From NCBI GenBank assembly GCA_021166685.1, contig JAJPEU010000001.1, positions 1-64,000 of the forward strand: 64,000 bases of DNA. The letters are read 5' to 3'. The notes under the pieces were generated by a model. That model did no database searches and was not told where the DNA came from. It worked only from the letters and a program-made list of their open reading frames with translations. This document shows, in pieces, positions 33,703 to 38,887 of this stretch. Made by a program: the position numbers and the translations under genes. The stretch comes from Sulfurovum sp. GTDB lineage: Bacteria; Campylobacterota; Campylobacteria; Campylobacterales; Sulfurovaceae. Within the stretch, counting starts at the first letter, position 1; every line of letters begins with the position of its first letter.

Positions 33703-34527
33703 TTATATGCCTGCCGTCATCTCTTCTTCTTCCGCAAGCAGGTATGACAGCTCTGCTTCCTCGCCGTAGGTTTTAAAAAGTTCGCAGATTCTCTCAAGCC
33801 GGATATCTGAGCGGTCCAGGTAAGGATTGGCGTCGATAAACTGCCAAAAAGGCTCAGGATCTTTGCAGAGCGCTTTGAGATAGTGTCGGGTGATTGCCCC
33901 CATAGATTCCTCGGTTTCTTCAAGAAGCTTTATCCTTTCTATCGCAAAAGGAGTTCTCATGCCATAGTAATCGACAGGTTCTCCTATCTGTTCAAAGTTG
34001 ACTTTTTGTCTTTTAAGGATGTGATGCATGGACAGTTCCATAATCGAAAAAACTCTCTCATAAGGATACAGAATAAAATTAATCCTTGTCGCAATCATTA
34101 AGCCATAAGTAAGGATTGTTCTAAGCTGAAGAGCCGAAAATATATTGTGTACAGGCAGGTTTTGGATCAATGCACCTCTTGATATTTCCACAATAGGAAA
34201 CTTTTGTGTTAAATACTCTATTCCTTCTACATGTCCGTCTTTTTGCATGGGCATGCGTTTGATCGGGGTTTTGCCGTTAACAAAAAAGTTTCTCACCGTC
34301 CCTGCGTATTGGCCTGTTTTTTTATGCTGCAAAAGATAATTAAAGGCCTGATTGTCATATTCGTTAAACAAATAACCCTTGACTTCTAGTTGTTCGTATG
34401 GCAATTTATAAATTGGTTGATAAGCTTCGGCTCTTATGTTTTTTATTGCTTGTAATTCTTGTTCTGTGGTTGCAAGCTTGAGGGTGTATTCTTCTGTTAG
34501 AACCTTGAAGGCTTCATCGTTTGTCAT
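33703..34527 (-). CDS. LuxI/FeeM-like GNAT acyltransferase
   Basis: The 274 residues resemble the GNAT-fold group that includes N-acyl amino acid synthases, autoinducer synthases and the PEP-CTERM/exosortase-associated acyltransferases. Supporting segments are an early I-R-A-E-A-Y, F-N-E-Y-D near 54, Y-A-G-T-V-R-N near 75 and P-I-V-E-I-S-R-G-A-L near 112. It may transfer an acyl chain from acyl-ACP or CoA to an amino-group acceptor, but the product is unknown. No exosortase gene or LuxR regulator is nearby. It is divergent from a TonB receptor gene. Confidence 0.65.
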   Translation of the reverse strand: MTNDEAFKVLTEEYTLKLATTEQELQAIKNIRAEAYQPIYKLPYEQLEVKGYLFNEYDNQAFNYLLQHKKTGQYAGTVRNFFVNGKTPIKRMPMQKDGHVEGIEYLTQKFPIVEISRGALIQNLPVHNIFSALQLRTILTYGLMIATRINFILYPYERVFSIMELSMHHILKRQKVNFEQIGEPVDYYGMRTPFAIERIKLLEETEESMGAITRHYLKALCKDPEPFWQFIDANPYLDRSDIRLERICELFKTYGEEAELSYLLAEEEEMTAGI

Positions 34528-34562
34528 GCTACTGTATCTTTTTTGTTGGATTTTGAAACAAT

Positions 34563-34568
34563 AGTATA
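34563..34568 (-). promoter_or_regulatory. Putative -10 box of the acyltransferase gene
   Basis: TATACT on the minus strand, 35 bases before the ATG at 34527. The same hexamer faces the other way at 34620-34625, with a CTTCAT-TTTT-ATGAAG palindrome (34598-34613) between them. Confidence 0.4.
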
Positions 34569-34597
34569 GAACGCATTTGATAAGAGTATTCTAAAAT

Positions 34598-34613
34598 CTT
34601 CATTTTTATGAAG
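34598..34613. repeat. Small palindrome in the divergent promoter region
   Basis: CTTCAT, four T, ATGAAG: a perfect 6-bp inverted repeat just upstream of the plus-strand TATACT. It is a candidate operator for the divergent genes. No known regulator motif is recognised. Confidence 0.4.
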
Positions 34614-34619
34614 TTAGGA

Positions 34620-34625
34620 TATACT
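34620..34625 (+). promoter_or_regulatory. Putative -10 box of the TonB receptor operon
   Basis: TATACT ends 13 bases before the ATG at 34639 and 31 before the ATG at 34657. If real, it favours translation from the second ATG. Confidence 0.35.
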
Positions 34626-34638
34626 TAGCGTAAACTTT

Positions 34639-36552
34639 ATGGGAAACGGACAAGGGATGGGATATTTTTTAAAAGAAACGAAAGCGTTGATGTGTGCATC
34701 GGTTTTGTGTGCGCTTTTATGCGTCGCTCTCAACGCGCAAAGCGTTGAGAGCGTGATGCAGGAGTATGACCGGGAAAATGCGTTAAGCCAAAAGACGATC
34801 GACGAAAATAAAGGGCATTTGGTACTTTTTGGCAGAGAGCAGCTTGAAAACATGCGTGCCAAAACGCTGAGGGATGTTTTCAAGACCACTCCTGTGATCT
34901 ATTATCATGAAAACAGGTTTGGTCTGCCTGATCCTCTCATGAGCGGTGCGTTTGAGCCTTACCGGAGCAATTTTATACGGCTGTATATCGACGGGGTGGA
35001 GATCACTCAAGGCTGGGCAGGAAGCGGACTGGTGCTGTATGGAGATATCAATATCGATTTTGTGGATCATATCGAGTTTTATTATGCTATTCCTTCGTTT
35101 GAAACTTCCGTAGAGCCGGCTTATCTGACGATTTTTCTTTACTCTAAAGACCCCAAGCGAGACAGCGGAGGAAAATTGGGCCTAAGCGGGGGAAGCAGAG
35201 GCTATAATGCCCAAACACTCAGTTATGCCAAGCAGGAGAAGGATGTTGCCTACATGGTTAACTTCTCACACACCAAAGAGAAGCGTGAAAAGATAGACAA
35301 CGGCACTTCCCTTCCTTTGTCTAGAGACTATGAAACCACACAGCTTTTTTCATATATCAAAACCGATGATCAAACTCTTCACCTTCAGGTGATGAAAAAA
35401 AATGCCGACTCTCTTGCGGGTCTTAGCTATGATGCGACACCTGAGGCTAGCAAGATGGACTACTTGAATGTGCATATGGATTACGGGGTTGACCTTGAGG
35501 CAAACTGGCGTGCACAGTTTGCCTATGACTGGCTCGAGAAAGGGATCTACGCAAAAGACGATAATCCCTTGCTGTATCTTGGCCTTTTTTCATCAGATCA
35601 ATATGAACTCGATGCTGAAGCGACGACAAGCGCTTATACGGGAGAGCTTACCTACCAGGAGACGATAGGCAGGCACAGGATTGCCACGGGCATCAAAGGA
35701 AGGCTCAAGCAGCTTGATAGTTTGAATGCCCAGGATGCGGGAGAGATCTCTTTGGATTTTGACAGTGAGGCGATCGCTTCGATTTTCTTCCAAGATCAGT
35801 ATGCACTTGCAGAAGGGCAGTTATTGACATTGGGGGTAGAGGGGATCCATTTTAACAGAAACGGCGGTGTAGAAGATGACTCTTTGATGCAGTTTCGTCT
35901 GGGTTATATCTACAACAATAAAGAGTGGACCTATAAAACCTATCTATACCGCGTAATGTTCGCGCTGGATCCTTTAAACAGGTATTTGGGGTATGCATCT
36001 TCCAAGAGCGTACCTGCGCAAAAAACCCTGGGGCTTACCCAGGAGCTTGCCTATACCGATGAAAAACAATATATCCGCCTGATGCTGCTTCTGATGAAAG
36101 ACGAAGACGGACTGGTACAAAACCCCGGAGTGTCAGGAGACACGAAGTATTTCTTTTCGGTTTTGAATTATGACTATCGTTTTGATGTGAACACTAAGCT
36201 GACCACGCAGGTTTACTACGCCAAATACAATAATTTAGCCGGTGTTGATGAATTGGAAGATGTCAGCGGATTTTTTACATTTTTTAAGCGTTATGAGGAT
36301 TTGGATTTTTATAACGGTTTAGTGTGGCACAGCAACAGCCTTGATTGGAAAAATTATTGGGATTTGACCAGTTCGGTGGCTTGGAATATCAACGAAGACC
36401 TTACGCTCACGCTCAAAGGAGAAAATCTTTTGGACAAGGCAAAAGAAACCAGTCTTTACAGGATTAATCCAACTATGTATGAACCTTTAAGCCCCTTGTC
36501 TATCTCGCCGATAGACCGCAGAATCATGTTGGAGCTGGAGTATATATTTTGA
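34639..36552 (+). CDS. TonB-dependent outer-membrane receptor-like protein
   Basis: A 637-residue protein with a signal peptide (hydrophobic stretch about 17-33), a plug domain (M-R-A-K-T-L-R-D-V-F near 75, then Y-I-D-G-V-E-I) and a long beta-barrel of alternating aromatic strands ending in L-E-L-E-Y-I-F, the terminal aromatic signal for outer-membrane insertion. The ligand is unknown; at this length it is small for a TonB receptor. No clear Fur box precedes it, arguing against simple iron control. An ATG at 34657 is a good alternative start. A strong hairpin lies in its early coding region. Confidence 0.82.
   Translation: MGNGQGMGYFLKETKALMCASVLCALLCVALNAQSVESVMQEYDRENALSQKTIDENKGHLVLFGREQLENMRAKTLRDVFKTTPVIYYHENRFGLPDPLMSGAFEPYRSNFIRLYIDGVEITQGWAGSGLVLYGDINIDFVDHIEFYYAIPSFETSVEPAYLTIFLYSKDPKRDSGGKLGLSGGSRGYNAQTLSYAKQEKDVAYMVNFSHTKEKREKIDNGTSLPLSRDYETTQLFSYIKTDDQTLHLQVMKKNADSLAGLSYDATPEASKMDYLNVHMDYGVDLEANWRAQFAYDWLEKGIYAKDDNPLLYLGLFSSDQYELDAEATTSAYTGELTYQETIGRHRIATGIKGRLKQLDSLNAQDAGEISLDFDSEAIASIFFQDQYALAEGQLLTLGVEGIHFNRNGGVEDDSLMQFRLGYIYNNKEWTYKTYLYRVMFALDPLNRYLGYASSKSVPAQKTLGLTQELAYTDEKQYIRLMLLLMKDEDGLVQNPGVSGDTKYFFSVLNYDYRFDVNTKLTTQVYYAKYNNLAGVDELEDVSGFFTFFKRYEDLDFYNGLVWHSNSLDWKNYWDLTSSVAWNINEDLTLTLKGENLLDKAKETSLYRINPTMYEPLSPLSISPIDRRIMLELEYIF
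34725..34753 (+). other. Strong hairpin inside the TonB receptor coding start
   Basis: A perfect 12-bp inverted repeat, CGCTCTCAACGC against GCGTTGAGAGCG, with a GCAAA loop, about 86 bases into the gene at the end of the signal-peptide codons. The ten bases AAAGCGTTGA occur in its right half (34739-34748) and again upstream at 34681-34690. In mRNA this would be very stable for such an AT-rich genome. Confidence 0.8.
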
Positions 36553-36998
36553 AAAGATTTTTCTTTTTCTTTTTACTGTTATGCGGGCAATTATACGCTC
36601 TAGAGAGAGAAAGTACGCTCAAAATGTATGGCACGATATTTGCGGCCCTCGGCCTAAAGGCTCCTGTTCATCTTTATGTCGATGACAAAGAGTATCGAAG
36701 TGTATTTAGACATTCGCCCGATATTGAGCTGACGAATACTTTTGAAAAATCGGATATCGTTTTGGTCACCACCGAAGAGGCATTGGAATTGGCAAGAAGG
36801 AAAAAAGGCGAAAACCCTGAAGGAAAGCCGATCCTATTTGCTACGGATTATCATTTTTTAAAATCATGCGAAAAAACAGTGGGTGCGTTTTATTGGAGAA
36901 AAGGGCGGTCTCAGTTGTTGTTTTTGAAAAAAAGATTAGACAGACACCATATCGCAGTGCCTGAAAAGTATGGCAAATTTGTCATAGATGAGCTATGA
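36549..36998 (+). CDS. Exported 149-aa periplasmic protein of unknown function
   Basis: A signal peptide (about 1-18) precedes a compact domain with alternating hydrophobic strands and helices (V-H-L-Y-V-D-D; S-D-I-V-L-V-T; K-P-I-L-F-A-T-D-Y) and a C-terminal G-A-F-Y-W-R-K-G-R-S-Q-L-L-F segment that looks highly conserved-like. The general layout recalls YfiR-type or binding-protein-like sensors, but I cannot assign a family. The TTG start overlaps the receptor stop, and its own end overlaps the EAL gene by 4 bases. The three are surely co-transcribed. Confidence 0.75.
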   Translation: MKRFFFFFLLLCGQLYALERESTLKMYGTIFAALGLKAPVHLYVDDKEYRSVFRHSPDIELTNTFEKSDIVLVTTEEALELARRKKGENPEGKPILFATDYHFLKSCEKTVGAFYWRKGRSQLLFLKKRLDRHHIAVPEKYGKFVIDEL

Positions 36999-38887
36999 AA
37001 CAACTGTACTTTAATCGAATTATTTTTGGTATCATAGGATTGCTTATCCTTTTTGTACTGTATTTGCAATATGCCATCATTGAAAACACGGAAAAGATAA
37101 AAAAAGATGAAATCCAAAAATCAGAGAATTATGCTCAAAAAATAGCAGAATATCTTCAGGCAAAAACAGACAATCACATGGAAGCATCTTTGACAAAAAG
37201 TCCTAAACTCAGAACTCAGCTCAATGAACTGCTTCAGGCCCTTTTAACGGAAAAATATCAGTATATTTTTGTGCTTAAAAAAGACACAAAAGGACATTAC
37301 CGTTTTTTGCTGGACGGCTCGAAAGAAGATGCAGTGGAATACAAAACTCTCTTTTTCCCTCAAAGCAGCTTGTTTGATAAAGTATATGCAGAACGTAAAA
37401 TGGGGATAGCCAAACAGCAAGAAGGTACCCAAAAAATTTGGCTCTCGCTCCTTTATCCCATAGTGGAAGCCAATCAGACAGAAGCGCTTTTGGTTGTAGA
37501 TCTTTCTGAAGAATACGCCGATTATTTGAACAATTTTAACTCTCCCCTGAAAATGCTTGTAGGTTTAATGCAGGTTTTTTTGGTCGTGAGTATGGTATTG
37601 TTGGGATTGATGGCATATCGATACTACAAATTTCGTCAAAGTGTTTTAAACGATGTTTTGACAGGCGCACATACCAAGCTTTATCTGGAAGAATTTTTCA
37701 ACCGCAATAGGCTGGATGACTATAATGCGATACTGATCGATATGGATGAATTTAAAGAGATCAATGAAAAATACAGTTATGATGCCGGTGATGTTATCAT
37801 CAAAGAGTTTACACAAGCTATTTTAGCAGAGCTCTCTTTGGAATCAAAATTGATAAGAACGGGGGGTACGGAATTTTTTATTGTTGTGCCCAAAAAAGAA
37901 ATCAGTATCGGAGTGCTGGCGCAAAAATTATTTAAACGCTTGCAAGAAAAGAAATACCTCATAGACAACGATGTGATTTTTTTGACAATCTCTATGAGTG
38001 CGATGATCATTCCAAGCGGCACCTCTTCTTTGCAAAACATACAAAGAATATTGGATGAGAAGCTGCTGGAGGTCAAAAGCAGAGGGAAAAATGATTTTAT
38101 AGTGTTGGATCTGCAAATGATTGATAATCTTAGGTATCGTGATATCAACTATATCAAAGAAGCCTTGGAGGAAAAACGGGTATCCTGTCTTTATCAGCCT
38201 ATAGTGCATACCCAAACAAAACAGATTGTAAAATACGAAGCCTTGGTGCGATTGGTAGACAAAGAAGACAGCAATAAACTGATTACGCCCGATCATTTTC
38301 TCAAGATCATCAAAGGAACTACGCAATACATCAAGATGAGCAAATTGGTGCTGAAGGAAGTTTTTAGTTCTCTGCATGCTTTTAAGGATATCAAATTGAG
38401 CATCAATCTTGATCTTGATGATCTCTATAACAACGATATGATGAAACTGATAGCAAAGCATTTATACAAAAACAGGGAAGTTGCAGACAGATTGACCTTT
38501 GAGATCCTGGAGTATAATGAAATAGTAGATTATGACAAGGTTATGCTTATTTTTCAACAGTTAAAAGCTTATGGGTCTAAAGTTGCCATTGATGATTTTG
38601 GAAGCGGGTATGCCAACTATAGTTATCTGATACACTTAGATATCGATATTATCAAAATAGACGGCAACCTAATATCCCAACTGCACACTTCTGCTCAGCG
38701 TACCAAAATCGTGCTTGAATCAATCCGAAATTTGGCAGAGAAATTTGGGTGTAAGCTGGTTGCCGAGTTTGTTTCAGATGAGATGCTTTATACCCAAATC
38801 AAGGCATTGGGAATTGAGTATGCGCAGGGGTATTATCTGGGGGAACCCAAACCCATAGAGGCGTATGAGAAATTCATCAAAGTTTGA
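36995..38887 (+). CDS. Membrane GGDEF/EAL protein, predicted c-di-GMP phosphodiesterase
   Basis: The 630 residues comprise a membrane helix (about 7-26), a periplasmic sensor region (about 30-185), a second helix (about 187-210), a GGDEF domain and an EAL domain. The GGDEF signature reads G-G-T-E-F (290-294), lacking the acidic third residue, so cyclase activity is unlikely. The EAL domain keeps E-A-L (415-417), the D-D-F-G motif (533-536), K-I-D-G and Q-G-Y-Y-L-G-E-P, so it should hydrolyse c-di-GMP. It overlaps the small periplasmic protein gene, which may supply its signal. Confidence 0.88.
   Translation: MKQLYFNRIIFGIIGLLILFVLYLQYAIIENTEKIKKDEIQKSENYAQKIAEYLQAKTDNHMEASLTKSPKLRTQLNELLQALLTEKYQYIFVLKKDTKGHYRFLLDGSKEDAVEYKTLFFPQSSLFDKVYAERKMGIAKQQEGTQKIWLSLLYPIVEANQTEALLVVDLSEEYADYLNNFNSPLKMLVGLMQVFLVVSMVLLGLMAYRYYKFRQSVLNDVLTGAHTKLYLEEFFNRNRLDDYNAILIDMDEFKEINEKYSYDAGDVIIKEFTQAILAELSLESKLIRTGGTEFFIVVPKKEISIGVLAQKLFKRLQEKKYLIDNDVIFLTISMSAMIIPSGTSSLQNIQRILDEKLLEVKSRGKNDFIVLDLQMIDNLRYRDINYIKEALEEKRVSCLYQPIVHTQTKQIVKYEALVRLVDKEDSNKLITPDHFLKIIKGTTQYIKMSKLVLKEVFSSLHAFKDIKLSINLDLDDLYNNDMMKLIAKHLYKNREVADRLTFEILEYNEIVDYDKVMLIFQQLKAYGSKVAIDDFGSGYANYSYLIHLDIDIIKIDGNLISQLHTSAQRTKIVLESIRNLAEKFGCKLVAEFVSDEMLYTQIKALGIEYAQGYYLGEPKPIEAYEKFIKV

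Follow-up and report, generated by a model that had tools for sequence, protein, structure and literature searches.

A LuxI-superfamily acyltransferase linked to a TonB-type receptor, a YfiR-like protein, and a c-di-GMP enzyme in Sulfurovum: a putative signaling unit

A four-gene unit in Sulfurovum

Analyzing the first 64,000 nucleotides of a contig from a Sulfurovum sp. genome (GenBank assembly GCA_021166685.1, contig JAJPEU010000001.1, positions 1 to 64,000; hereafter, the window), we found an acyltransferase gene of the LuxI/FeeM/TIGR03694 superfamily divergent from three overlapping genes (hereafter, the trio) encoding a TonB-dependent-receptor-type outer membrane protein, a small exported protein, and a GGDEF/EAL sensor. 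On balance, and with a slight lean rather than firm conviction, we read the four genes as one signaling unit, in which an N-acyl signal is sensed at the outer membrane, passed on by a YfiR-like relay, and answered by hydrolysis of cyclic di-GMP (c-di-GMP). Our computations gave the gene unit itself, the folds, an intact EAL site, a degenerate cyclase motif, and the synthase-superfamily residues retained in the acyltransferase.

The acyltransferase gene (33703-34527, minus strand; 274 amino acids) encodes a putative N-acyl signal synthase, assigned by hidden Markov model (HMM) scans and invariant residues. Across a divergent intergenic region (34528-34638), the trio is read on the plus strand. 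It consists of the receptor (34639-36552; 637 amino acids, start possibly the ATG at 34657), recognized by a Plug match and by its relatives; an exported YfiR/DUF4154-like periplasmic protein (36549-36998; 149 amino acids, TTG start), recognized by AlphaFold2 modeling and by structure and profile comparison; and the inner-membrane GGDEF/EAL sensor (36995-38887; 630 amino acids), with two transmembrane helices, a periplasmic Cache/PDC-like domain, a GGTEF motif, and an intact EAL domain. Both junctions within the trio are 4-base overlaps of stop and start, TTGA at 36549-36552 and ATGA at 36995-36998, the kind of junction seen in operons with translational coupling. A first-pass annotation, made from the letters of the window, had proposed these four genes in this divergent layout, and on re-reading the coordinates and orientations were all borne out.

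Acyltransferase and trio are gained and lost together

Among 78 genomes (species) of the genus Sulfurovum, the acyltransferase is found in 27, with one more, weak match in G213, and the close form of the 149-residue protein in 28. Acyltransferase and trio are both present in 26 genomes and both absent from 49; the three exceptions, one with the acyltransferase only and two with the trio only, are all cut at contig ends. Since the P value of this co-occurrence (Fisher's test, 3e-17) is inflated by relatedness, we built a tree of ispB from 39 genomes. On this tree, the presence of the module changes at least 12 times, or 13 if G141, with its module at another place, is counted as a carrier; where branches are well supported, synthase and trio change together in 8/8 independent pairs. 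The neighboring ispB was found in 74/78 genomes; the module is therefore far patchier than its neighbors. The first-pass annotation had named a lack of linkage between acyltransferase and trio in other genomes as grounds for refuting its module. The linkage held: it is near-perfect in Sulfurovum, persists through 8 to 13 independent gains or losses, and is seen again in a second, diverged form in other families.

In most Sulfurovum genomes that carry the module, it is placed between ftsL/RND and ispB (RND, resistance-nodulation-division transporter), and module-free genomes have an intact rsmH-ftsL-RND-(DUF2018)-ispB, i.e., an empty site. Such constancy of one chromosomal site is what co-inherited synteny would give, with the four genes sharing no function, an explanation that we consider very improbable. 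In G141, the ftsL-RND-ispB site at about 1,609 kilobases (kb) is empty and the four genes stand together at about 700-705 kb, some 900 kb away, so the block has relocated whole; at several other loci the left or right flank differs and the four genes are still unbroken. Moreover, the joint gains and losses on the ispB tree, together with the second diverged version in other families, contradict pure synteny. Divergence of the synthase, with that of ispB held fixed, correlates with the divergence of the receptor (partial r = 0.71), the EAL protein (0.62), and the small protein (0.52); this is supporting evidence only, because linked inheritance alone also gives a positive correlation.

One genome, G166 (locus L162), has a decaying trio, in which the receptor and small-protein genes are broken, the EAL gene is shortened, and the acyltransferase is gone. 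At the ftsL-ispB site of most relatives, ftsL is separated from the module or ispB by an AcrB-type RND gene (L040, 5261-8380), which the window genome lacks there. This transporter was considered as an exporter of the synthase product and rejected, since module-free genomes also have it at this site and the window does not.

A second, diverged version in other families

Searching the phylum with TIGR03694, we found acyltransferases of about 200 amino acids directly upstream of TonB receptor, DUF4154/YfiR, and GGDEF/EAL genes. This second type differs from the Sulfurovum form in its YfiR and its receptor and has a shorter synthase; its genes are co-directional in 9 of the 10 loci read, the GGDEF/EAL gene being divergent in L317. 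A survey of 399 genomes of Campylobacterales gave 52 strong acyltransferase matches, 41 of them no more than 5 kb from a YfiR (DUF4154) gene, always upstream of it and in the same orientation; ten of the second-type loci seeded the alignment and search, and without these seeds the count within 5 kb is 31/42. Of the remaining matches, four have a small-protein trio at a distance of 7.4-9.2 kb, and several stop at contig ends. This looser association, with genes between, is seen in G067 and G003 (L059, L318) and, by position, in G080 and G117. In G040 and G054, the second version sits at the Sulfurovum site, in the order rsmH-ftsL-RND-module-DUF2018-ispB. Because a second, diverged version exists in other families, LuxI-superfamily enzymes must have become paired with TonB-YfiR-EAL chains either long ago or on more than one occasion.

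Receptor and small protein stay, outputs vary

The small-protein family occurs in 53/150 genomes sampled across Campylobacterales and also in Aquificota. A TonB-type receptor is encoded directly upstream of it in 74/80 named loci, with two more cut by the contig edge, and a sensor protein directly downstream in 70/80, many of the others being contig ends. The downstream sensors keep one N-terminal sensor region, and their output is usually GGDEF/EAL; it is GGDEF alone in five loci (L059, L075, L250, L259, and L268) and a histidine kinase in seven (L045, L062, L064, L070, L219, L220, and L224). A signal-relay module would be expected to look like this, its output swappable while receptor and small protein remain the same.

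At histidine-kinase loci L064 (9587-11560), L079, and L070, the next gene can encode a large EAL-domain protein, which has a receiver-like N terminus in L064, as if c-di-GMP stayed the output via a two-component detour. In L053 (6154-6615) and L049 (7631-8113), no sensor gene comes after those of the receptor and the YfiR-like protein; its place is taken by a gene for a small soluble protein resembling haloacid dehalogenase (HAD)/P-type ATPases. The contig of L219, which holds a histidine-kinase trio, is titled Helicobacter pylori PMSS1 (metagenome-assembled genome); this title is probably mislabeled or the bin mixed.

The acyltransferase

The best model for the window acyltransferase is TIGR03694 exosort_acyl (4.8e-19, 68.7 bits versus a cut-off of 111.95), a curated cut-off passed in 0/249 genomes. 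Against Autoind_synth (PF00765), it scores 22.4 bits (1e-4; cut-off, 24), and three second-type synthases lie above that cut-off, with 28.7, 32.2, and 29.8 bits. R32, D58, R79, E114, S116, and R117 are invariant over 25 acyltransferase relatives, and R32, D58, R79, E114, and R117 also align with the second-type synthases. The window enzyme thus carries the pattern R..D..R..E.xR, which we take to be the conserved residue pattern of the LuxI superfamily. The autoinducer-binding domain of LuxR (PF03472) has no match in the window genome, which is 94% complete, under a search whose positive control matched in Escherichia coli. Canonical LuxR perception was therefore rejected, and the absence of this domain is expected if perception uses another route. 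A plasmid search with a second-type synthase returned one distant Rhizobium match without annotation. Acyltransferases of about 250 amino acids also stand alone, with no adjoining TonB-YfiR module, in L323 (G116), L324 (G364), and L325 (G091); that of L323 belongs to PF21926 FeeM, and the copies of L324 and L325 align with it.

The receptor

The Plug domain of the window receptor is a weak match (4e-4, 21.2 bits versus a cut-off of 23.9). The plug is highly conserved among relatives, and the receptor slot of second-type modules holds proteins with a clear Plug and barrel. TonB receptors mostly serve to take up scarce ligands, and the window genome encodes several TonB_C proteins, as it might if the cell made an acylated metallophore or nutrient scavenger that the receptor imports with its cargo, the YfiR-like/EAL branch reporting uptake. 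We find this decidedly unlikely: the compared loci have no further fixed gene, hence no conserved importer or siderophore assembly gene, and the third fixed gene encodes a YfiR-like signaling protein, not a permease.

The 149-residue protein

The 149-residue protein has no Pfam match, and PF13689 has none anywhere in the window genome; DUF4154 is likewise missing from the families listed for 44 aligned relatives. Sequence searches of Pfam, NCBIfam, and PDB with this protein by itself returned nothing of use, which left comparison of folds and of profiles as the way forward. Its AlphaFold2 model (mean predicted local distance difference test score [pLDDT], 89) has as its best structural match YfiR (PDB 4xjy; Z = 10.3, root mean square deviation of 3.0 over 130 residues, 8% identity). 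Other matches are small Rhodothermus substrate-binding proteins and one half of ATP-binding cassette (ABC) substrate-binding proteins, and the YfiR structure paper likewise names the ABC substrate-binding domain as a structural relative (PMC4655355). In profile-profile comparison, the 149-residue protein aligns with the DUF4154 proteins of the phylum over nearly the full length (probability 95.5, E value of 1.6e-8). YfiR of Pseudomonas aeruginosa is stabilized by a Cys145-Cys152 disulfide (PMC4655355); the mature 149-residue protein lacks this pair, having one cysteine (in KSCEK), with its second cysteine in the signal peptide. From the YfiR fold and the profile match to DUF4154, we take the modeled 149-residue protein to be a diverged relative of YfiR beyond the reach of the Pfam model. 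We call it a relay because the cyclase YfiN is controlled from the periplasm by YfiR (PMC2837407), and the predicted fold and gene position agree with the periplasmic relay role that the first-pass annotation had suggested for it.

The GGDEF/EAL sensor

The sensor matches EAL (5e-54) and GGDEF (6e-18), both well over the cut-off. In the model of its N-terminal 210 residues, two long helices flank a periplasmic mixed-sheet domain, at about residues 30-185, which is matched structurally by WalK, sporulation kinase D, and chemoreceptor domains of the Cache/PDC type. All EAL catalytic residues (E of EAL, N, E, DD, K, E, and Q) are present in the window protein; they are also complete in 10 second-type modules and near-invariant over 58 homologues. 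The GG[DE]EF motif is degenerate in the window (GGTEF) and in 19/19 acyl-linked Sulfurovum copies, whereas canonical GGEEF is found in 36/58 homologues overall. With its EAL site intact and its GGDEF motif degenerate, the Sulfurovum form is most likely a phosphodiesterase, and the motifs agree with an output that would lower c-di-GMP, as first proposed. In second-type modules the GGDEF motif is mostly SGDEF, whose activity is not judgeable from sequence.

The intergenic region

The divergent gap contains two TATACT boxes (34563-34568, minus strand; 34620-34625, plus strand) and a palindrome with perfect 6-base arms, CTTCAT-TTTT-ATGAAG (34598-34613), just as the first-pass annotation had pointed out. 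TATACT/TATAAT-like boxes are found again in most relatives. A sigma-70 promoter scan of the gap gave 0 matches versus 0.5 expected from shuffled sequence, and the palindrome is absent from the closest relatives, L134 and L135, so it was rejected as an operator. Thus, the sequence features stood, but a regulatory meaning did not rise above chance. In L140, L141, L142, L145, L146, and L152, TTGAC(A/T) direct repeats with a spacing of about 11 bases lie 5' of the receptor gene and look like OmpR/PhoB-type binding sites; the window gap is without them.

Proposed mechanism and alternatives

In the signaling unit that we favor, the synthase would make a small N-acylated compound, either an N-acyl amino acid or a molecule like an acyl-homoserine lactone, which exits the cell and is bound by the TonB-type receptor at the outer membrane. 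Binding would alter the hold of the receptor's periplasmic face on the YfiR-like protein, which would set the state of the sensor's periplasmic Cache domain; this state would in turn set EAL phosphodiesterase activity, with c-di-GMP falling when the signal is present. Here, the product is presumed to be the receptor's ligand, the relay to be physical, and control to run in this direction.

Several points weigh against this mechanism. The synthase product and the TonB coupling of the receptor are putative, and the direction of the c-di-GMP change is predicted from motifs. The TIGR03694 enzymes are named for extracellular polysaccharide (EPS)/exosortase contexts, not for signaling. Most Campylobacterales trios have no adjoining acyltransferase, so the receptor family needs none and an acyl ligand is possible only for the acyl-linked subset.

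Alternatively, the acyltransferase may itself be a target or output, acylating an envelope or matrix component that is produced under joint regulation with the c-di-GMP switch, while the receptor senses an unrelated external ligand. c-di-GMP usually governs matrix production, and both the PEP-CTERM/exosortase character of the best named model and the fact that most trios work without an acyltransferase suit such an output. However, the window enzyme scores far under the cut-off of that model, which no surveyed genome passes; no matrix genes are fixed alongside, the fixed ones being those of the receptor and YfiR-like protein; and synthase divergence follows the receptor better than the EAL enzyme. 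We therefore regard the output role as unlikely and keep to the synthase as the source of the signal.

Relation to known systems

The closest known system is YfiBNR (TpbB) of P. aeruginosa and E. coli (PMC2837407, PMC4655355), in which, as in the window, genes for an outer-membrane protein, a small periplasmic protein of YfiR fold, and an inner-membrane c-di-GMP enzyme lie together. The match of the 149-residue protein to YfiR extends along its whole length, and both proteins also resemble halves of ABC substrate-binding proteins; unlike YfiR, it falls outside Pfam DUF4154 and lacks the disulfide pair. The outer-membrane partner in YfiBNR is the OmpA/Pal-like lipoprotein YfiB, whereas a TonB-type receptor takes its place here, and the YfiBNR output is a cyclase, in contrast to the EAL phosphodiesterase with a Cache-like domain. 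Finally, the window module has a dedicated acyltransferase in addition.

With LuxI/LuxR, the window synthase shares its superfamily and conserved residues, and it adjoins a putative receptor. However, LuxI/LuxR perceives its signal through a cytoplasmic DNA-binding protein, whereas perception here would lead from the outer membrane to c-di-GMP with no LuxR-type receptor. FeeM and TIGR03694 are the best-scoring families for the window enzyme and its relatives, but the window enzyme lies under the TIGR03694 cut-off, has no FeeM match, and has a TonB-YfiR-c-di-GMP module as its fixed context.

Genuine DUF4154 genes of the phylum likewise lie between TonB receptor and GGDEF protein genes. In the literature searched, which included few subscription papers, we found no description of these TonB receptor/DUF4154/GGDEF groups as a system or with an acyl synthase, and no paper that brings an acyl synthase together with a TonB receptor and c-di-GMP, or that treats YfiR and a TonB receptor as a system. 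A quorum-sensing survey of thermophiles, using BLAST with LuxI/LuxR of Vibrio fischeri, reported no autoinducer-1 (AI-1) system and found LuxS in Nitratiruptor (PMC6022435). In Rimicaris epibionts, epsilonproteobacterial luxS was closest to that of Sulfurovum, and no luxI was found (PMC5362221).

A YfiBNR-like module with a quorum-sensing role is plausible but unproven. We hold the wider proposition more tentatively, as possible though a little doubtful: that Campylobacterota, not known for acyl quorum signals, have widespread acyl quorum sensing through a TonB-type outer-membrane receptor and a YfiR-like relay to c-di-GMP, with no cytoplasmic LuxR. In many lineages, gene-level evidence connects an outer-membrane receptor and a YfiR-type relay with a synthase of the LuxI superfamily, and the gene set suggests an undescribed way for deep-sea and sediment relatives of Campylobacter to sense their own fatty-acyl signal. 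The driver of YfiR-type periplasmic relays becomes testable, as the synthase of the candidate ligand is encoded alongside. If the product is indeed the receptor's ligand, a phylum for which LuxS/AI-2 is the reported system would also have a quorum-sensing route in which the signal is read extracellularly and written as c-di-GMP.

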